From the IMG/VR virus record IMGVR_UViG_3300036045_000015, positions 1-50,740 of that record: a stretch of DNA of 50,740 nucleotides. One strand, written 5' to 3'. A model generated the notes under the pieces. That model did not search any database and had not been told where the DNA came from. It was given only the letters and a program-made list of their open reading frames with translations. Origin of the DNA: a virus. The position numbers and the translations under genes are program-made. Positions 26,373 through 50,740 of this stretch are shown here, piece after piece (the first letter of the stretch is position 1; each line of letters begins with the position of its first letter).

Positions 26373-26900
26373 ATGGCGTGGAATTCCCCCGTTGAAGCGT
26401 TACCGGGCGGCGTTATTAGCGCCGATTTCTGGAACCAACAAATTCGAGACAATCTTGTCTATTTGAAATCGGGCAACATGACAATGATACAAGGTAAAAC
26501 GGGTGCAGCAGTCACATTCACAAGCGTGAGTTTCGCCGCTATTGACGACGATATTTTTTCGTTAGGAATTGAACTAGATGAGCCATCAGCGGTGCAGTTT
26601 ATGGCAACGTTGCCCGTGCAAGTGTCTACAGCAAACAATTTCGCATATTTTGATGTACTTGTGGACGGGGCTACGTACCTATCGTCGGGCACTTCAACGC
26701 CGGAGGTCGGTGGAATTAGCTACAACCGTATTGCTACAATTACATCAGTGCTAATAAATTGGGTTAGCAACATTCTACCCGCTGGGGTGCATACTTTTGC
26801 GTTACGTGGAAAGTTTTCTGGAACAGGAAACTTTTCATTAGCGACGGACGTTGCGCCCTTTCAAATGCGCCTAAAAGACGTAGGACAAGTATTGACATAA
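26373..26900 (+). CDS. minor tail protein B (paralog of previous gene)
   Basis: 175 aa, ATG at 26373, 2 nt after the preceding stop and following AAAGGA. It opens AWNSPVEALPGGVISADFWN and IRDNLVYLKSGN, the fibre-type start shared with its neighbour, followed by a matching FAYFDVLVDGATYLSSGTST strand pair. Sequence identity with the paralog is low outside these segments. A promoter lies over its last codons. Probably part of the tail tip or fibre. Confidence 0.65.
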   Translation: MAWNSPVEALPGGVISADFWNQQIRDNLVYLKSGNMTMIQGKTGAAVTFTSVSFAAIDDDIFSLGIELDEPSAVQFMATLPVQVSTANNFAYFDVLVDGATYLSSGTSTPEVGGISYNRIATITSVLINWVSNILPAGVHTFALRGKFSGTGNFSLATDVAPFQMRLKDVGQVLT

Positions 26901-29055: not shown

Positions 29056-29147
29056 GATATAGTAAACCAAACTACTCGACCAGAAAAGTGCCAAAAAACT
29101 ATAGTTTTATTGCGCTTTTCTGGTCGAGTAGTTTGGTTTACTATATC
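29056..29147. repeat. perfect 33-bp inverted repeat
   Basis: Arms 29056-29088 and 29115-29147 are perfect complements around 26 nt; the loop itself contains the palindrome AAAACTATAGTTTT (29095-29108). Almost the whole 92 bp can fold into one hairpin. No T-run follows; the -35 of the next promoter begins on the very next base. TTTGGTTTACTA of the right arm recurs near 39901. Function unknown: protein-binding site, RNase III substrate or barrier to read-through. Confidence 0.95.
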
Positions 29148-29176
29148 TTGACAAGCCGTCATTTTGATGGTAGTAT
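29148..29176 (+). promoter_or_regulatory. sigma70-like promoter abutting the 33-bp inverted repeat
   Basis: TTGACA (29148-29153), 17-nt spacer, TAGTAT (29171-29176). The spacer carries CCGTCA-ttt-TGATGG, a palindrome with one mismatch. Predicted start is near 29183. Confidence 0.75.
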
Positions 29177-38544: not shown

Positions 38545-39771
38545 ATGAACCAAATTGCGCCACTTCGTCAAGTCGAATGGCAAGCAACAAAGAAACTTAC
38601 AGAAGATCAATGGCGGGCAGAAATACTTGGTAAACGCCCTAATCGTCGGGCAGCTGCAAAGCTGTTAACAGAGCGCGTCAATGTAACGCTGCTCGAATGG
38701 ATGGCATTTGCCGCCTTAGTTGTATTGACAATTTTTACATCGCTAAAGGTGTTCACTGCGACGGTGCCGATTGCAACTACGCTTGCGGAAAGTCTGGCGC
38801 AAACAACGGCAATTAACAATTGGGTGATGACGCTGTTTATTGGCAGTGCGGGCATGACATCAGTTATGTTGGCGACCCCCGCCTTGATTTATTTTAAGGT
38901 TATGGACGCGACGGATAAGCGGTTTATCAATAAACCGCAATTGATCGTCATTGGTAGCGAATATAATCGTATGGGGCGCATCACTCGCACTATTGCTAAT
39001 TTTGTCAATCTGAATGTCATCAGTTACTATTTTCCGGCATTGTTGGTATACGCCATTTCAGGGTATTTACTCTATGTCAGTTTGCATGGCGATTATCAGA
39101 ACGAGTTTGATAAGCTAATTCTCGTTATCGCGGTTATTGCCGAAATCGCGCTTGCATACTTGGTCAGCGACATTTTGGAGAAATACCAACGCCGTGCAGG
39201 TTTAGTCACTGAAAAATTAGACCTGATGATCGAAAAATGGGAAACACGCGAAAAGGGGATGGCAGCAGATAACGAGTATCTTGCACTTCTTTACCAAAAC
39301 ATTTTCACTGCTTTACTCGAAGTTCGGCGCGATATTCGAGACAAGCAAGTACGAAAAAATGTACGAGTAAATGCGTGGCTTGAAATTGAAACCCCAGAAA
39401 TTAGAGAAGCAGCCGTTAAAGACGAATACCGCCGCCATGCTGTGGGGTCGCAAAATTTTACGCAATTTGTCATCGGGGGGATGAACCCCCCACTGAATGA
39501 AAAAGTTGAGGCAATTGCATATGCTGTAACACCTACGGGCGCTGCCCCCGTTGTGACAGAGGAACTACCCACAAAACGCCCTACTCCAACTGGGGGCTGG
39601 ACGGTTGAAAGTTTAGCCTTAGATATGGTTCGGAGCGGCACGTTCAAATATATTCAAGAGCATCCGCATTCCCGGACGCCATATCATGCAATCAGCAAAG
39701 TTTACGAAAATGTAGGTCGAGGTGAGTTTCGCACTGAAGCCCTAAAGCGGGCAAGTGAGCTATCTCGTTAA
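38545..39771 (+). CDS. multi-span membrane protein of unknown function
   Basis: 408 aa, ATG after AGGAGAAAAAG. Four membrane helices are visible: about 48-70 (LLEWMAFAALVVLTIFTSL), 92-118, 155-178 (YYFPALLVYAISGYLLYVSL) and 188-208 (LILVIAVIAEIALAYLVSDI). The cytosolic C-terminal half has a coiled-coil-like region (EKWETREKGMAADNEYLAL), a Pro/Thr-rich linker (PTKRPTPTGGW) and a final helical domain. No transport or nuclease motif. Its own promoter and a long inverted repeat behind it set it apart from the replication block. A role in superinfection exclusion or host membrane change is possible but unproven. Confidence 0.7.
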   Translation: MNQIAPLRQVEWQATKKLTEDQWRAEILGKRPNRRAAAKLLTERVNVTLLEWMAFAALVVLTIFTSLKVFTATVPIATTLAESLAQTTAINNWVMTLFIGSAGMTSVMLATPALIYFKVMDATDKRFINKPQLIVIGSEYNRMGRITRTIANFVNLNVISYYFPALLVYAISGYLLYVSLHGDYQNEFDKLILVIAVIAEIALAYLVSDILEKYQRRAGLVTEKLDLMIEKWETREKGMAADNEYLALLYQNIFTALLEVRRDIRDKQVRKNVRVNAWLEIETPEIREAAVKDEYRRHAVGSQNFTQFVIGGMNPPLNEKVEAIAYAVTPTGAAPVVTEELPTKRPTPTGGWTVESLALDMVRSGTFKYIQEHPHSRTPYHAISKVYENVGRGEFRTEALKRASELSR

Positions 39772-39786
39772 ACATAAAGATTTATA

Positions 39787-39866
39787 AGTTGCAACTAGCA
39801 TTTTTTACCGGAGAAATTAAGCACTTTATTTGAAAAATTTCTTCTTTCAAAATGCTAGTTGCAACT
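39787..39866. repeat. perfect 18-bp inverted repeat with internal palindromes
   Basis: AGTTGCAACTAGCATTTT (39787-39804) and its exact complement (39849-39866) flank 44 nt. Each arm contains the 10-bp palindrome AGTTGCAACT, so there are two identical operator-like sites with centres 70 bp apart. The interior also has GAAATT/AATTTC pairing. The gap from 39772 to 39933 holds no gene and no obvious TTGACA promoter. Confidence 0.95.
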
Positions 39867-39933
39867 AACAATTGAAAATAAACGATAAAATTCAAGACTT
39901 TTTGGTTTACTACTTAAAATATCGAGGATGATT

Positions 39934-40368
39934 ATGGTCGTATCTTTACTATTTGGTGTCTTTATCGGCTGGCTGTCGCTATTATGCGTAACTATTGCCT
40001 TTAGCCGTTATAGAAACAAATTATCAAAAGCGCTGAGGATTGACCCGTTTGGCAGCAGCTACATTTATTTTTGGCAATCCGTTAAAGACCCCCTATCTGT
40101 TAAAATTGGGCGAACCAATAATCTTATACGACGTATGGACACCTTCCAAACCGCACAAGCTGAACCTATCCGCTTATTATGTGCTATAGAGGTGAAAGAT
40201 AACCGTTATTCAGAGAAATGGCTTCACGATTGTTTTGAAAACAGTCGGGTACGGCGCGACGGAGAATGGTTCTACCTAACCCCCAAACTTGCAATACTGA
40301 TGTGGGCGATACGAGATAGCGAGTTAACAGAGCGCGTTAGACGGCACATCAACGAAACAGGCAGTTGA
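39934..40368 (+). CDS. membrane-anchored GIY-YIG (T5orf172-like) protein
   Basis: 144 aa. ATG at 39934 is 6 nt after GAGG; ATG 39928 is too close. Residues 2-24 form a membrane helix (VVSLLFGVFIGWLSLLCVTI). The rest is a GIY-YIG fold of the T5orf172/MUG113 type: SSYIYFWQS, VKIGRTNNLIRRMDTF with the catalytic Arg, then YSEKWLHDCFENSRVRRDGEW with the Glu and the GEWF end. The active-site residues appear to be kept. A nuclease domain tied to the membrane is unusual for phages and could act on incoming DNA at the cell surface, which would suit superinfection exclusion. This is inference. Confidence 0.7.
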   Translation: MVVSLLFGVFIGWLSLLCVTIAFSRYRNKLSKALRIDPFGSSYIYFWQSVKDPLSVKIGRTNNLIRRMDTFQTAQAEPIRLLCAIEVKDNRYSEKWLHDCFENSRVRRDGEWFYLTPKLAILMWAIRDSELTERVRRHINETGS

Positions 40369-41305: not shown

Positions 41306-41358
41306 AATAAATGGCGTTGTGTTTTACGATAATTATGACACGACGCCATTTATTTTTT
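41306..41358 (+). terminator. long intrinsic terminator
   Basis: AATAAATGGCGT-t-GTGT and ACAC-g-ACGCCATTTATT pair around an AT-rich loop, followed by TTTTTT. The AT symmetry may make it work in both directions. Confidence 0.85.
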
Positions 41359-41544
41359 ATATTCAGCAAAAAAAACAAAATCTTATATAGAATATTTATA
41401 CGCCCCTTACTTAGCTTCTATAGTAATTTTTCCCCCGTAATAAAAGTTCCTAATTATATATACAATATATTCCAACCTCGAAATTCGACATAACTTTCGA
41501 AGGTCTTTTCAAAACTGCGCATCACGCATGGCGCACAATAACCG
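41359..41544. other. AT-rich gene-free spacer
   Basis: Very AT-rich stretch after the terminator, including TAATAAAAGTTCCTAAT near 41433-41449. That is close to the AATAAAAGTTCTTAAT core of the direct repeats at 46797 and 46858. No gene is supported. TGCGC and GCGCA pair shortly before the iterons. Confidence 0.5.
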
Positions 41545-41634
41545 CGAATAAATGTCAAGCGAATAAACGCGGTACGAATATACGTCAGGCAAATAAATGT
41601 GGCACAAATAAATGTGATACGAATAAAAATAAAT
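41545..41634. repeat. six tandem 15-bp iterons
   Basis: Six head-to-tail units of exactly 15 bp beginning at 41545, 41560, 41575, 41590, 41605 and 41620. Consensus is CRAATAAAYGTSRNR, best seen as CAAATAAATGTGGCA and CAAATAAATGTGATA. Non-coding in the + frames because of stops; the array ends 3 bp before the shared box and 24 bp before the -35 of the next promoter. Candidate initiator or activator binding array. Confidence 0.85.
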
Positions 41635-41637
41635 TTG

Positions 41638-41688
41638 TGAATTTTGCGTAAATTGCTCTTGACACGAATTTGCTTTTCGAATTATGAT
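41638..41688 (+). promoter_or_regulatory. early promoter 1 with 17-bp upstream box
   Basis: Box TGAATTTTGCGTAAATT (41638-41654), 4 nt, TTGACA (41659-41664), 18-nt spacer, TATGAT (41683-41688). The same box at the same distance precedes the -35 at 42684. The leader contains AACTCACTGAGAGG (41711-41724), shared with the 43132 gene. Confidence 0.8.
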
Positions 41689-41734
41689 GAGGACATCACA
41701 TGAAAATTTCAACTCACTGAGAGGCAGCACAAAA

Positions 41735-41953
41735 ATGACAACACTAGAGAAAACCATTCTGGCGACAATTGGCACAATCAAGATGACCAATGCAGAGGGA
41801 ACATGGGTAGTAAACGAAGACTATGAGCGCGAACTTGCAAAGTTTATCGCGGGCTACGTTGATATGAAAGATGTCCTGAACAAATCAAAAGAATTCAAAC
41901 AGGCGGTGAACTACGCTCGTACCGCTTTAGCTCCCGCGTTCGTTTTGGTGTAG
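41735..41953 (+). CDS. small early-type hypothetical protein
   Basis: 72 aa, ATG 10 nt after GAGAGG in a leader shared with the gene at 43132; the open frame extends further upstream into the promoter, which is not translated. Mostly helical: TTLEKTILATIGTIKMT, ELAKFIAGYVDMKDVLN, NYARTALAPAF. No recognised family. Located directly behind iterons and a box-containing promoter, so probably expressed early. Its stop lies 2 nt before the next gene. Confidence 0.65.
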   Translation: MTTLEKTILATIGTIKMTNAEGTWVVNEDYERELAKFIAGYVDMKDVLNKSKEFKQAVNYARTALAPAFVLV

Positions 41954-41955
41954 CT

Positions 41956-42423
41956 ATGTTAAAACAAAATTATCTGCGCCTAATTCAACTAGCAAAAAAA
42001 TCATACGTGCTAGGCACAATCGGCGAACATTTTGCCATGCTGCAATTAAATGTATACGGTCAATTAAAAACAACGCATATCGCCACAAACAGGGAAAAAC
42101 TAGGCGATATTCGTTTAGCGGGCACTGACATCACGATTGAAATCAAGACGGCACGATTGGCTAAGGACGGGCGCTGGACATTCACAATCTATAAAAAGGG
42201 GTCACAATCGTGCCATAACGCTGATTACGTACTGCTCCAATGCTTTAATGACGAGGGTTTGGCGCAACTCTACTTAATCCCAAGAGAAGCGGTTGGAACA
42301 GCACACACGATTAAAATCACTCGTAGCTACATGGGAAAATATGCCGTGTACAAGACCAGCTATGCAGCAGCCGCTAACTATTTGAAAAACATGCACCTAA
42401 CAGACGAAAGGAAAACAGCATGA
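41956..42423 (+). CDS. PD-(D/E)XK endonuclease-like protein
   Basis: 155 aa, ATG at 41956. GTIGEHFAMLQLNVYG (helix with the conserved Glu), LGDIRLAGTDITIEIKTARL (Asp, then E-x-K), and a strand with NADYVLLQCFNDEG and LYLIPREA match group-I-intron-type PD-(D/E)XK endonucleases such as the I-SspI kind. All three catalytic residues appear present. No fused DNA-binding domain. It may cut host or rival phage DNA, or be a homing enzyme without an intron; no intron is visible. It overlaps the next gene by 4 nt. Confidence 0.75.
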   Translation: MLKQNYLRLIQLAKKSYVLGTIGEHFAMLQLNVYGQLKTTHIATNREKLGDIRLAGTDITIEIKTARLAKDGRWTFTIYKKGSQSCHNADYVLLQCFNDEGLAQLYLIPREAVGTAHTIKITRSYMGKYAVYKTSYAAAANYLKNMHLTDERKTA

Positions 42424-42665
42424 ACCAAATCGAAATGATCAATCACGAATATCGTACCGAAACATTTCTGATGCTCGCAAAGAGTTACAATGTCCATATC
42501 GAAAGTGACGTGGTACTTGTAGTTGTGTCGGATAAAAATCAGCCAAACACATTCTCGATTAAGTCCTACAAATCACTTGGACATGCAATTCGCTTTTTTA
42601 ATCGTATGAAGCGCGAGGGCTGCCACGTCGGTTTAATTGGTAAGGGCATAATCATGCAATTCTGA
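42420..42665 (+). CDS. small hypothetical protein
   Basis: 81 aa, starting in the ATGA overlap. Helix then strands: MINHEYRTETFLMLAKSYNV, VVLVVVSDKNQPNTFSIKSY, a helix LGHAIRFFNRMKREG and a final CHVGLIGKGI strand. Looks like a small alpha/beta domain. Family not recognised. Translational coupling with the endonuclease suggests a partner or immunity role, which is speculative. Confidence 0.6.
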   Translation: MNQIEMINHEYRTETFLMLAKSYNVHIESDVVLVVVSDKNQPNTFSIKSYKSLGHAIRFFNRMKREGCHVGLIGKGIIMQF

Positions 42666-42711
42666 ATTTTGCGTAAATTCATATTGACAAGTGCCCCCAT
42701 CTTGATATACG
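42663..42711 (+). promoter_or_regulatory. early promoter 2 with 17-bp upstream box
   Basis: Identical box TGAATTTTGCGTAAATT (42663-42679), 4 nt, TTGACA (42684-42689), then a weak -10, TATACG with a 16-nt spacer (42706-42711). Box and -35 spacing equal that of the promoter at 41659. Confidence 0.7.
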
Positions 42712-42776
42712 CTAACGACATCGTACAAATGCAAATTCAAAAAACACACTCTAAGAGAGAGAGAGAAAGAAACACA

Positions 42777-43019
42777 ATGGAAATTATCGTTCGCACTAAC
42801 AGCTATAGCCTTGAAGATTTGCGCAGCGAGGTTGAAGACCTGCTTAACGAAGCGCTAGGGGCTGATGACAGCTTCGTATATTTGTCGCATTTTGAAAATG
42901 ATGACGAAGCGAAACAATTTTTGTCCGCCGCCTGCACTATGTTGACAGTGCTGGAAAGCCAGCCCGACAAGCAAGGTGAATTGGCAGCGGCAATTCTCAA
43001 GGTAATCGGAGAGGAATAG
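42777..43019 (+). CDS. small acidic hypothetical protein
   Basis: 80 aa from ATG at 42777, preceded by a long purine run (AAGAGAGAGAGAGAAAG) that can serve as binding site; the frame upstream covers the promoter and is not translated. Acidic: SLEDLRSEVEDLLNEALGAD, then YLSHFENDDEAKQFLSA and helical end. No recognised family; small acidic early phage proteins are often host-protein or DNA mimics, a possibility only. Confidence 0.6.
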   Translation: MEIIVRTNSYSLEDLRSEVEDLLNEALGADDSFVYLSHFENDDEAKQFLSAACTMLTVLESQPDKQGELAAAILKVIGEE

Positions 43020-43091
43020 AATTTACGCAATTTTCACAAATCACTCATCATAGGTCTTGACACAATGTACCATTATGACCTATGATGAGTG
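43020..43091 (+). promoter_or_regulatory. early promoter 3: reversed box and 15-bp inverted repeat
   Basis: AATTTACGCAATTTTCA (43020-43036) is the box in reverse with two mismatches. CACTCATCATAGGTC (43042-43056) and GACCTATGATGAGTG (43077-43091) are perfect arms. TTGACA (43057-43062) begins the loop and TATGAT (43081-43086, 18-nt spacer) lies within the right arm. RNA starts near 43093. Confidence 0.85.
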
Positions 43092-43131
43092 TGTAAGACG
43101 AAATTTTAACTCACTGAGAGGATAAACACCG

Positions 43132-43518
43132 ATGAAACCGTATGTCGCCAAAACCAAAATTGATGTTTATGACGCCGATGGAAATTATCTTGATTTGTCA
43201 ATTTTAGAAATTGATGAGCAATCGGTTGTTTTGGTCGCACATGGCACACCGCAAGGTTTTATCGTAGACGGTGAAAATAATGTTTACACTGCTATGGAAT
43301 TGAACGCCATTGTACGTCACTATTATCCGCAAGTAAACGAAATCGGTTTAATCGCCTGTCATCCGGCAAACGTTGCTGCCCGTAACCTTGATTTAGCAAC
43401 GTGGGATATTGAAATCTTTGGCGATTGGTCTGATGAAACCATGCTTGAAATTGATACATATGAGGATAAAAGCGTTCGCTTTAATTTTTACCCAGTAGCG
43501 CCAGAACACACTATTTAG
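43132..43518 (+). CDS. hypothetical protein with clan CD-like His/Cys motifs
   Basis: 128 aa, ATG 10 nt after GAGAGG in the shared AACTCACTGAGAGG leader. A central core reads VVLVAHGTPQGF (His37), then a helix AMELNAIVRHYY, then EIGLIACHPANVAAR (Cys76). Order and spacing of HG and a following strand ending in xAC recall clan CD cysteine peptidases and their DUF4347-like relatives, which are otherwise much larger. The N-terminal 30 residues form strands. If active, it could cut a host protein; without more sequence evidence that is a hypothesis. Confidence 0.55.
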   Translation: MKPYVAKTKIDVYDADGNYLDLSILEIDEQSVVLVAHGTPQGFIVDGENNVYTAMELNAIVRHYYPQVNEIGLIACHPANVAARNLDLATWDIEIFGDWSDETMLEIDTYEDKSVRFNFYPVAPEHTI

Positions 43519-44325: not shown

Positions 44326-44730
44326 ATGACAAAGTACAAAGCACAAATCAACCCACGTCAAGAAATGAAGGAAAAAACGATTGCGAAGGGGACTACCGCC
44401 CACGTAACGGCGAAAAATGTCAGTATTGGTGAACAGCCAGTTTCGATGATGTACGAAACGGTTATCCGCTATCATTGGACGGATATACTAACTGTCTATG
44501 CAAGCGATTTAACAAATGATGTCTATGTGCAAATTTGCACGAATGGTTGGCGGACTGCAACAACCAAACGCCGCATCAACGATATGCTGCGCATGATGGG
44601 GGTTAAAGCGTATATCTATCAGCAGCGCGGCGATTGGTATCTTGTCTACACCGACAGCGACGGCAAAAATCATGAGGAACGTTTCTTTGAGGCGTCGGGC
44701 GACATTATTGTCCAAAGTATTCGCCTCTAA
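44326..44730 (+). CDS. hypothetical protein, paralog A
   Basis: 134 aa, ATG after TAGGAGATAACGAAC. Begins TKYKAQINPRQEMKEKTIAK and has YETVIRYHWTDILTVYASD, TATTKRRINDMLRMMGVKAYI and WYLVYTDSDGK. The next gene has the same plan and many of the same residues, so they are tandem duplicates that have diverged. Alpha/beta, no membrane segment. Function unknown; repeated small early genes often diversify against variable host targets. Confidence 0.65.
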   Translation: MTKYKAQINPRQEMKEKTIAKGTTAHVTAKNVSIGEQPVSMMYETVIRYHWTDILTVYASDLTNDVYVQICTNGWRTATTKRRINDMLRMMGVKAYIYQQRGDWYLVYTDSDGKNHEERFFEASGDIIVQSIRL

Positions 44731-44762
44731 CGAAAAATATCCTAAAGGCTGAGGTAAACCAC

Positions 44763-45170
44763 ATGACAAAATATTGTAAGCAAGTTAATCCGCGTCAAGC
44801 AATGAAGAAAACAACAATTGCGAACGCTACAACTGCCCGCGTCGAAAATTCAACACTGTATACGGAAAACGGCGGGGGGCAAATCTACAAAACCACGATT
44901 TGCTATCGTGGGCTGGACATTCTTATGGTTTGGACAAATACGAGTAATCTTGATGTGGTCGCAAGCATCCGTATCGGAGAACTGCGTACTAGTGCGCTAA
45001 AACGCCGCTTGAACGATATGTTTAACATGATGACGCTCAAGGCGCAGATTGTTGAACGTGATCATGAGTGGCGGCTAATCTATACGGCATGGAATGGAGA
45101 AGTCCGAAACATACCGATCCGAGAAACAACTGACATTTGTGTACAAGGGGCGAATGAAAATGAAGATTGA
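44763..45170 (+). CDS. hypothetical protein, paralog B
   Basis: 135 aa, ATG after GCTGAGGTAAACC. Shares TKYCKQVNPRQAMKKTTIAN with paralog A, then YKTTICYRGLDILMVW, ALKRRLNDMFNMMTLKAQI and WRLIYTAWNGE. The order of matching segments is unchanged, and the most conserved part is the K/TxRRxNDMxxMM helix. It overlaps the next gene by 11 nt. Confidence 0.65.
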   Translation: MTKYCKQVNPRQAMKKTTIANATTARVENSTLYTENGGGQIYKTTICYRGLDILMVWTNTSNLDVVASIRIGELRTSALKRRLNDMFNMMTLKAQIVERDHEWRLIYTAWNGEVRNIPIRETTDICVQGANENED

Positions 45171-45887: not shown

Positions 45888-45896
45888 CTAATAGAT

Positions 45897-45927
45897 GAGA
45901 CAGCCAAAAAATGGTTGTCTCATTTTT
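45897..45927 (+). terminator. intrinsic terminator of the small-gene operon
   Basis: GAGACAGCC and GGTTGTCTC pair around 7 nt (one G-U pair), followed by ATTTTTATT. Confidence 0.85.
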
Positions 45928-45963: not shown

Positions 45964-45997
45964 TTATCCCACATCCGTGTGGGATAATGTGTGATAA
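45964..45997. repeat. three DnaA-box-like 10-mers
   Basis: TTATCCCACA (45964-45973), its inverted copy TGTGGGATAA (45978-45987), and TGTGTGATAA (45988-45997). All fit TTATC[C/A]CACA, one base longer than the DnaA consensus TTATCCACA. The first pair makes a hairpin with a 4-nt loop. Confidence 0.6.
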
Positions 45998-46327
45998 CAA
46001 GGTTATGCTAAAAATAATGTTTTGACCCACTAAAAATAAATTTAGGCTGGTCTAAAAATTTCATAGAAACGGGCTACATTCTGTACAAAACACTACACCC
46101 TGTACATTATCGTACAAACGACATTCAGCCCAGTTGCATCCGAACCAAGCACCGAAAAAAACTACATTCGATGACCATACCGTTGGCACTTAGTAACAAG
46201 CCTACAGAATTATTTTACCCCAGCGTCAATCGGGCTGGCATACATACGAATGACATTTGCTTAAATCGCTAAAATAGGGCTTATTTCGCGAAATAAGGGC
46301 ATTTTTGTGATTAAGGTGTATTCATAC

Positions 46328-46480
46328 ATGTACTGCTGTAAAATCGAAAATTGTGCCTATAACATAGGCAAATTGTGGCGCTGTAGTATGTGTTGTGCTG
46401 CTGTGCATTGTAGTATGTGTGCTGATGTTAGTTTGTGTGCTGATGTTCGGGCTGTTGTTCGGATGAATAATGTTGTTTAG
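46328..46480 (+). CDS. candidate 50-aa cysteine-rich protein
   Basis: ATG at 46328, 9 nt after AAGGTG, to TAG at 46478. Nine cysteines in 50 residues (positions 3, 4, 9, 19, 22, 23, 28, 31, 37), with CSMCC, HCSMC and LCADV, as in a small zinc-binding knuckle. Two direct repeats of the DNA fall exactly in this frame, at 27 and 18 nt, so they repeat CSMC and CADV. That favours coding, but the same repeats could belong to an origin. No promoter is clear. Low but real support. Confidence 0.35.
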   Translation: MYCCKIENCAYNIGKLWRCSMCCAAVHCSMCADVSLCADVRAVVRMNNVV

Positions 46481-46637
46481 TATATTATCTTTTGATGTGA
46501 TATTTTTTGATATATTATGATTTATTTTATTCTGATGTGTGTTATTCGGATGATGTAATTAATTACAGCCCTTAACCCCCCACTAATAGATGCTCATGCA
46601 CCCGCTGGCGATCTTCCAATTTTCCAAAAAACAGTTC

Positions 46638-46760
46638 GTTTGTAAATTGTAACACTTGAATAAAAAGTGTTACTCCACTCCAAAATTGCAAAAAACATAA
46701 TATATAATGGGGATTTTGAAGCGATTAACACTTTTTATTCAAGTGTTACAATTTACAAAC
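46638..46760. repeat. perfect 35-bp inverted repeat
   Basis: Arms 46638-46672 and 46726-46760 are perfect complements around 53 AT-rich nt. Each arm also contains an internal palindrome AACACTT-gaataaa-AAGTGTT, so each arm can fold alone. It begins GTTTGTAAATTGTAACACTT. It lies inside the origin-like region. Confidence 0.95.
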
Positions 46761-46796
46761 CTTTTCTTTTTGGCGCATTTTCACCGTATTTCGTGT

Positions 46797-46906
46797 ATTT
46801 CGTGAATAAAAGTTCTTAATCCACTCGAAACGTGTCGAAAAACTAGGGCATTTGGAGATTTCGTGAATAAAAGTTCTTAATCCGCGCAAAAGTTGCAGAA
46901 AAACTA
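46797..46906. repeat. two 49-bp direct repeats, 61-bp period
   Basis: Copies 46797-46845 and 46858-46906 share an identical 26-bp start (ATTTCGTGAATAAAAGTTCT, then TAATCC) and an identical end GAAAAACTA, with a variable middle. A related AATAAAAGTTCCTAAT lies near 41433. Position just before the next promoter suggests a paired binding site. Confidence 0.85.
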
Positions 46907-46917
46907 ATTCAAGCTAC

Positions 46918-46946
46918 TTGACACGCTTGCGATTAGCTACTATACT
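46918..46946 (+). promoter_or_regulatory. sigma70-like promoter
   Basis: TTGACA (46918-46923), 17-nt spacer, TATACT (46941-46946). No palindrome; the 49-bp direct repeats lie directly upstream and may hold activator or initiator sites. Confidence 0.8.
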
Positions 46947-46975
46947 GAAACGATATTCGAGAGATGGAGGCGATA

Positions 46976-48968: not shown

Positions 48969-50740
48969 ATGAGAATTGCAAACATACGAGATTTAACAGC
49001 GGGTTTTGTGGTAGTTTTTGTGCTTTTATTGGGGCTGTTGCTGCTAAACGCCGAACAGGTAATTCAGCTATCGGGGTATGGTGCGCAGCAAGTTTCTGTT
49101 CCGACGTTTGTAGTTGGCGGTTCGGGGGGCTACCCGACGATTGCCGCAGCTTTAACGGCAGCTGCGGGGTCGCCCAGCGCTGTTATCGAGATTTCTTCGG
49201 GAGTTTATCGAGAGCAGGTTAGCTTGTCTGGGCGTTCCGGTATCACGCTGCGGGGCATGGGGGCGGTTACGATCAGCGCTTTCAATGTTATCAGCGCCCC
49301 AACGCTGCACAGCACGGGGGTTTACCGCGTCCCGTTGACGCTTAATTTGGGTCTGGCTGATCCGAATTCGGTGTGGAGTAATGTGACTGTCGCAGTTCCG
49401 GCGCGGCAGCGAATGCACGTTTGGGTTGCTCAGGTTCGTTTACGTCCTGTTACGCAGTTGCCCGCTGACGGGGAATATTGGCACGATACGGCGAATGGCG
49501 TATTGTATGTTAACCCCGTTGGTACCTTAGTGCCAACGGAGGTGGAAGTATCGGCGCGGGAATACGGGCTTATTGCCGAAAATGCTCAGGATATTCAAAT
49601 TGAGAATTTGGCTATTGAGGGGTGCGCTAGTCGGGTTCAAGGGGGCTGTGTTCAGTTTCGGAGAACAGATAATATCTATATGCGTGATGTGACTGTCACG
49701 CGCAGCGGTTACAGCGGCTTTGACTTTTATGATACGGACAATGTTGAGTTGTCCAATTTAACTGCCAATCGCAACGGGGTACGTGACTTCGGGGTGCAGC
49801 GGGCGGAGAATTTGGCGCTTATTGGATTTGAGTTTACCAATACGGGCTGGAAGATTACTGAGAGTGAGCCGCGTCCGGTAGAGAGTAGTTCGCCGCTTAT
49901 TGCTTGGGATGGCGGTAATAAGATTTTGTTTTGTTGGGATTGCGTTTTTGAGAATGGCGTTGTGGACGACATTCGCGGTATTGGAATGTGGTTTGACTTT
50001 GATAATCAAAGAACGGTATTACGGAATTCGCGGATTACTGATGCCGAGCTTGCGGGCGTATTTGTCGAAGCGAATTGTACGGTGTCGGGGGGCTACAGTG
50101 TTTCGTTGCAGCAAGTATTTATTGAACATGGGCTGCCCGGCATGAGTACGCGCGGGGACAATGCTTATTGGGGCGCGTTGTTTATTACGGGAACGGACGG
50201 GGCGCTGTTTGAAGACGTTTATATTCGTTCGGGGGGTCGTAATGGGGTTATGATCACTAATCCTGACCGGACGGTGCAAACTAAAATTGGCACGACTTGT
50301 CAGACGGGTAATCGGAATAATGTGTTTCGTCGTTTAACGGTTGAACAGGTGAGTAACGGGTTTACAAACGCAGCGCTCATTCAAATGGCGTATGGGGGTA
50401 ACGGATATTACGCCACCACCGAGTTTGATGAAACTATTGTTGACCCGCTTTCCGGCAACTCGCAGCCGTTAATGCTGGAATTTGTATCGAGACCATTAAA
50501 TACGTTTGTCAGTTTGATTAAGCCCGGCAGTGACGTTGCGATTATGGATGCACAATTGCCACAAAGTACACCCCCAGTTTTACAAACTGCAACGCCAACG
50601 GCAACGAATACACCAACGAATACACCAACGAATACACCAACGAATACACCAACGAATACACCAACGAATACACCAACGAATACACCAACGAATACACCAA
50701 CGAATACACCAACGAATACACCAACGAATACACCAACGAA
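48969..50740 (+). CDS. secreted/virion beta-helix protein, N-terminal part (runs off the window)
   Basis: At least 590 codons, open to the right edge; the end lies at 3-212 if the molecule is circular. ATG after GGAGGATATTT. The N-terminus has a hydrophobic helix (AGFVVVFVLLLGLLLL), then VPTFVVGGSGGYPTIAAALT, as in pectin-lyase-like right-handed beta-helices. Repeating short strands follow (IQIENLAIEGC, NIYMRDVTVTRSG, NVELSNLTANRNG, GALFEDVYIRSGGRNG), the ladder of such folds. From residue 546 the Thr-Asn-Thr-Pro repeat forms a long extended linker. It is the kind of protein that acts as depolymerase, adhesin or tailspike. The signal-like helix is unusual for a tailspike, so export or membrane anchoring in the host is also possible. 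Confidence 0.8.
   Translation, partial: MRIANIRDLTAGFVVVFVLLLGLLLLNAEQVIQLSGYGAQQVSVPTFVVGGSGGYPTIAAALTAAAGSPSAVIEISSGVYREQVSLSGRSGITLRGMGAVTISAFNVISAPTLHSTGVYRVPLTLNLGLADPNSVWSNVTVAVPARQRMHVWVAQVRLRPVTQLPADGEYWHDTANGVLYVNPVGTLVPTEVEVSAREYGLIAENAQDIQIENLAIEGCASRVQGGCVQFRRTDNIYMRDVTVTRSGYSGFDFYDTDNVELSNLTANRNGVRDFGVQRAENLALIGFEFTNTGWKITESEPRPVESSSPLIAWDGGNKILFCWDCVFENGVVDDIRGIGMWFDFDNQRTVLRNSRITDAELAGVFVEANCTVSGGYSVSLQQVFIEHGLPGMSTRGDNAYWGALFITGTDGALFEDVYIRSGGRNGVMITNPDRTVQTKIGTTCQTGNRNNVFRRLTVEQVSNGFTNAALIQMAYGGNGYYATTEFDETIVDPLSGNSQPLMLEFVSRPLNTFVSLIKPGSDVAIMDAQLPQSTPPVLQTATPTATNTPTNTPTNTPTNTPTNTPTNTPTNTPTNTPTNTPTNTPTNTPT
50604..50740 (+). repeat. 12-nt tandem repeat (Thr-Asn-Thr-Pro codons), right end
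   Basis: About 11.4 exact copies of ACGAATACACCA reach the window edge, in frame with the beta-helix gene. Together with the repeat at the left end they mark the opening point of the molecule. Confidence 0.97.

Follow-up and report, generated by a model that had tools for sequence, protein, structure and literature searches.

The window, that is, the whole stretch of DNA that was analysed, is a 50,740-bp virus record from IMG/VR and represents a tailed phage that encodes a large terminase (PHROG match, 6.6e-39), a DNA polymerase and helicases, with nearly every gene located on the + strand. Close relatives were found neither in phages (megablast of 30-50.7 kb against 50,697 phage records, without a near match at the DNA level, and blastn of 41.3-44 kb), nor in plasmids (blastn of 41.3-43.6 kb), nor in IMG/VR scans with the proteins encoded at 43132, 36425, 44326 and 32658. 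The relatives of the large terminase (TerL) show only about 22-46% identity; because the best of them (32-46%) are encoded in several contigs of Anaerolineae MAGs (L096-L101), the phage is likely to have a host among the Anaerolineae (Chloroflexota). The record terminates with CAACGAATACAC repeated perfectly 11.6 times (50602-50740; T-N-T-P if translated), an array that may have caused a break in the assembly.

The promoters considered here, P1, P2 and P3, lie together at the head of a single terminator-bounded block of about ten small ORFs (~41.3-45.9 kb), the main features of which are the following:

41306-41354, + strand: terminator-like hairpin with 17-nt arms and a T-rich tail, which ends the preceding gene block
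41544-41633: some six direct repeats of 15 bp each, (A/G)C(G/A)AATA(A/T)A..., adjoining box copy 1
41735-41953, + strand: first gene of unit 1, a 72-aa orphan ORF without a family match
41956-42423, + strand: unit 1 ORF of 155 aa (pI 9.6) without a family match
42420-42665, + strand: unit 1 ORF of 81 aa without a family match
42777-43019, + strand: sole gene of unit 2, an acidic 80-aa orphan ORF
43132-43518, + strand: first gene of unit 3, an acidic 128-aa orphan ORF
45893-45925, + strand: terminator-like hairpin (14 bp), which ends the P1-P3 block

Searches of Pfam and PHROGs gave no family match for nearly all ORFs of the block, and no DNA-binding transcription regulator was recognized by these two resources among the ORFs tested, most of which are orphans. 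The 155-aa ORF contains a stretch, GDIRL..TIEIKTARL, that by eye only resembles the PD-(D/E)XK core. Farther downstream, the genes at 44326 and 44763 (44326-45170) are tandem paralogues of 134 and 135 aa with 40% amino acid identity, and the former matches PF23790 (Kyanoviridae Gp96, 4.6e-6, just at the cut-off) and phrog_554 (1.9e-9). Judging from gene type and position only, the genes of the block may be early genes.

Two further stretches border these genes. At 41355-41633, an AT-rich stretch is followed by the six or so direct repeats, a layout resembling that of an iteron-type replication origin. Past the terminal hairpin, a long region without clear genes (45990-46960) contains several repeats, some inverted and some direct (46638-46672/46726-46760; TTTCGTGAATAAAAGTTCTTAATCC at 46798 and 46859) ahead of the promoter at 46918.

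The promoters themselves, numbered with TTGACA set as -35 to -30, are accompanied by a 17-bp box and, in two units, by a common leader:

41638-41654, + strand: box copy 1, TGAATTTTGCGTAAATT, exact, at -56 to -40 of P1
41659-41688, + strand: P1, TTGACA-N18-TATGAT
41711-41724, + strand: leader AACTCACTGAGAGG of unit 1, with an SD-like end, 10 nt upstream of ATG 41735
42663-42679, + strand: box copy 2, identical TGAATTTTGCGTAAATT, exact, at -56 to -40 of P2
42684-42711, + strand: P2, TTGACA-N16-TATACG, with TGn preceding the -10
43020-43036, - strand: box copy 3, inverted, with two mismatches to TGAATTTTGCGTAAATT, at -72 to -56 of P3
43042-43056 and 43077-43091, unstranded: perfect 15-nt inverted repeat with arms on either side of the -35 of P3, overlapping its -10
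43057-43086, + strand: P3, TTGACA-N18-TATGAT
43108-43121, + strand: leader AACTCACTGAGAGG of unit 3, 10 nt upstream of ATG 43132

The first-pass annotation had described an identical box 4 bp ahead of the -35 elements at 41659 and 42684 and an inverted copy with two mismatches upstream of 43057, and had noted that two of the three units share a leader at an equal distance from the ATG. The coordinates and both exact copies are confirmed, the inverted copy was located with a gap of 20 bp to its -35, compared with 4 bp at both P1 and P2, and the leader turned out to belong to units 1 and 3. The interval 41638-43036 runs from the first box to the third, such that P3 falls just past its end. The TGA of box copy 2 doubles as the stop codon of the ORF at 42420-42665. 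Copy 3 keeps 15 of the 17 box positions, including all four G/C positions, and its likeness to copy 1 extends over 22 nt (20/22); across all three copies the GCG core is invariant, within an invariant 11-mer, TTGCGTAAATT.

The recurrence of the box is clearly not due to chance. Under a third-order Markov model, 0.07 sites with two or fewer mismatches are expected per window compared to the three observed, and the two exact sites have no counterpart in 100 simulations; in 1000 draws of 47 random 60-mers from the window, the longest word shared at the same offset did not exceed 13 nt, as against 17 for the box. Within the phage, the box is confined to P1-P3. TTGACA occurs 47 times on the + strand versus 15 times on the - strand, where the base composition predicts about 14, and a promoter scan yielded approximately 20 plausible + strand promoters of the TTGACA type that are spread across the entire window. 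The other 17 or so of these lack the box, with at least five mismatches each, which is the background level. Being present at only three of about 20 promoters, the box is an added element of one block rather than a general part of the phage promoters, which lends support to the original proposal of a small set of box-bearing promoters.

That proposal would have been undermined had the box been frequent elsewhere, and no such frequency was observed in the window, in IMG/VR or in Anaerolineae genomes. In IMG/VR, TTGCGTAAATT-N4-TTGACA is found in seven stretches representing five distinct contexts, none of which (0/7) contains the full box or the TGAAT extension, and the leader AACTCACTGAGAGG followed by ATG is found in four stretches with unrelated contexts. 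Just one further exact copy of the 17-mer exists in IMG/VR (L004); it falls inside a coding ORF, the phage in question has unrelated structural genes, and the match was dismissed as chance. Among the 396 genomes of the class to which G004, the Anaerolineae MAG containing L099, belongs, the box-TTGACA arrangement has no exact match and 15 matches with one mismatch, close to the approximately 10 estimated from random composition (the backward control gave 2); hence no host regulon is apparent, and the arrangement is not a host signature. Nor does the box rise above background in the whole genomes of six TerL-bearing MAGs and of L005, and no repeated upstream word of at least 11 nt was detected at the TTGACA sites of the TerL loci. 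A search of Rfam gave no match.

The comparison of the three units shows which of their parts are conserved. P1 and P2 share the box (17/17) and the -35 (6/6) in full, with only 1/4 identical positions in the linker, 6/16 in the spacer and 17/39 in the upstream flank, and the genes downstream of P1, P2 and P3 are unrelated to one another. It is therefore unlikely that the promoter as a whole was duplicated recently, and the P1/P2 pattern speaks for selection on the box, although with three copies this is an argument and not a proof. P3 retains the leader and the -10 of P1 (TATGATGAG) and carries its box inverted and 16 bp farther off, so that box and leader behave independently. The likeness of the leaders of units 1 and 3 reaches 20/21; within the window, AACTCACTGAGAGG occurs at 41711 and 43108 only, without a further copy at two or fewer mismatches, and the P2 leader differs from it in being purine-rich.

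Alternatively, the boxes and leaders might be short homologies that were left by, or used for, the shuffling of small-gene modules. Copies 2 and 3 indeed flank unit 2 as 21-nt inverted repeats (42660-43041), and the tandem paralogues at 44326 and 44763 indicate that duplication does occur in this block. However, no target-site duplication is seen around 42660-43041, the equal 4-bp gap to the -35 at P1 and P2 would not be expected of junction scars, and the lack of relationship among the genes behind the promoters also speaks against such an origin, which we consider improbable.

The position of the box at P1 and P2 calls for comparison with the UP element, known from rrnB P1 and from the early promoters of phage T4, which are UP/-35/TGn/-10 promoters (PMC2988021). 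Under this explanation, the box offers two AT tracts, AATTTT at -54 to -49 and TAAATT at -45 to -40, which would directly bind the alpha C-terminal domains of host RNA polymerase and strengthen P1 and P2, whereas copy 3 would be a relic or a weak element; the phage would then merely strengthen two promoters in the usual way. As in UP elements, the P1 and P2 boxes are AT-rich, two-tract sequences just upstream of the -35 of strong TTGACA promoters, inside the UP window of -58 to -37 (PMC2613000), and the UP score of the box (9) is in the 98th percentile of the window positions. Nevertheless, the in-register match to the 17-bp UP consensus, AAAWWTWTTTTNNNAAA (PMC2412878), covers only 7 of the 14 specified positions, and the box-less promoters at 26892, 29148 and 46918 of the same phage reach an equal score. 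Furthermore, the box differs from UP elements in its identity over 17 bp across promoters. Exact retention of the GCG core is unexpected of an UP element, as is a third copy that is inverted and, being located 16 bp farther upstream, lies outside the UP window, at a distance where such an element would not act in its normal way. Thus, of the initial suggestion of an activator or an UP-like element, the latter part fits P1 and P2 in position and AT tracts and does not fit P3. Overall, an UP-type element is conceivable, if rather unlikely.

We prefer, tentatively and at somewhat less than an even chance, to view the box as a putative site for one sequence-specific DNA-binding protein that would co-regulate P1-P3, most likely by activation. 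This reading is favoured by the invariant GCG core, the confinement to three promoters and the displaced inverted copy; in particular, the preservation of all four G/C positions in the latter suggests that individual bases are read, and not simply a high A/T content. Counting against it are the small number of copies, three in one genome, the lack of a recognized regulator gene and the UP-like position at P1 and P2. Helical phase does not decide the matter: between P1/P2 and P3, the box is shifted by 16 bp centre to centre (~1.5 helical turns) and the invariant TTGCGTAAATT alone by 22 bp (~2 turns), which makes conservation of the face of the helix ambiguous.

According to the proposed scheme, a single protein of phage or host origin would bind the box and co-regulate the three sigma70-type promoters of the block, occupying positions around -48 of P1 and P2 and, facing the other way, around -64 of P3. 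The bound protein would touch host RNA polymerase either at sigma region 4 or at the alpha C-terminal domain; this contact would most likely raise transcription. P3 could be subject to additional control of its own through the 15-bp inverted repeat, a candidate operator. Since the repeat would form a hairpin (-24.4 kcal/mol) in RNA that reads through from P2, a role at the RNA level is also possible.

Perfect inverted repeats with arms of at least 12 nt and loops of up to 45 nt number five in the window, and three of these, each with its own sequence, adjoin promoters (1239-1275, 29068-29135 and 43042-43091). The promoter at 1215 has its -10 overlapped by the 12-nt repeat at 1239-1275, which continues beyond it and is unrelated in sequence to the P3 repeat; at 29056-29147, the right arm of a 33-nt perfect inverted repeat reaches the -35 of the TTGACA promoter at 29148, which precedes an HNH-type gene (29206). 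Between the genes at 38545-39771 and 39928-40368 lies another perfect inverted repeat of 18 nt, AGTTGCAACTAGCATTTT, whose loop measures 44 nt (39787-39866).

The same sequence evidence that suggests a protein site is also compatible with a repressor or lytic-timing site, at which the bound protein would turn P1-P3 off later in infection, and the operator-like repeat across the core promoter of P3 would suit this function. However, at P1 and P2 the box lies entirely upstream of the -35, which is unusual for a simple repressor, and no repressor gene was recognized, so that repression appears quite unlikely. A more specific form of the preferred reading is also unlikely: a dedicated phage regulator of a new family, encoded among the orphan ORFs, would recognize the box whichever way it points and govern a takeover operon of an Anaerolineae phage, with a second regulator at P3. 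Should a protein indeed read the box, P1-P3 would form a compact regulon with three promoters; the phage lineage concerned is close to Anaerolineae, from which the searches made found no characterized phage promoter. The box could be used as bait for finding its regulator.

Promoter boxes of a similar kind are common in phages. The box described here resembles the activator boxes of T4 MotA, P2 Ogr and lambda CII in being a short site common to promoters that use host RNA polymerase. The sites of the P2 Ogr and lambda CII activators are TGT-N12-ACA and TTGC-N6-TTGC around the -35, respectively. Both motifs are absent at P1-P3 (interval searched: 80 bp ahead of the -35 start to 15 bp past it), TTGC-N5-TTGC being present at P1 alone; consensus sites for CRP and IHF are absent from the three promoters as well. 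The T4 MotA box takes the place of the -35 and is centred around -30 (PMC2988021); unlike these middle promoters, P1, P2 and P3 all have a perfect TTGACA. Based on the features tested (the perfect -35 and the absent motifs), a site of the MotA, Ogr or CII type was rejected.

Another system for comparison is that of the cluster K mycobacteriophages, in which many copies of the SAS, GGGATAGGAGCCC, with two or fewer mismatches, precede start codons, and the ESAS consists of imperfect inverted repeats of 17 bp that are separated at each site by a spacer of 4-13 bp (PMC3203893). The phage studied here differs in that its sequences are unrelated to these, there are only two leader and three box copies, the leader is tied to recognizable promoters, and each promoter has a single box copy instead of a 17-bp inverted-repeat pair. 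As with SAS/ESAS (PMC3203893), a short start-proximal sequence (here AACTCACTGAGAGG) is combined at some genes with a longer upstream element, and the arrangement is confined to non-structural genes. The observed box is real, a small finding of a known kind, the phage promoter box.
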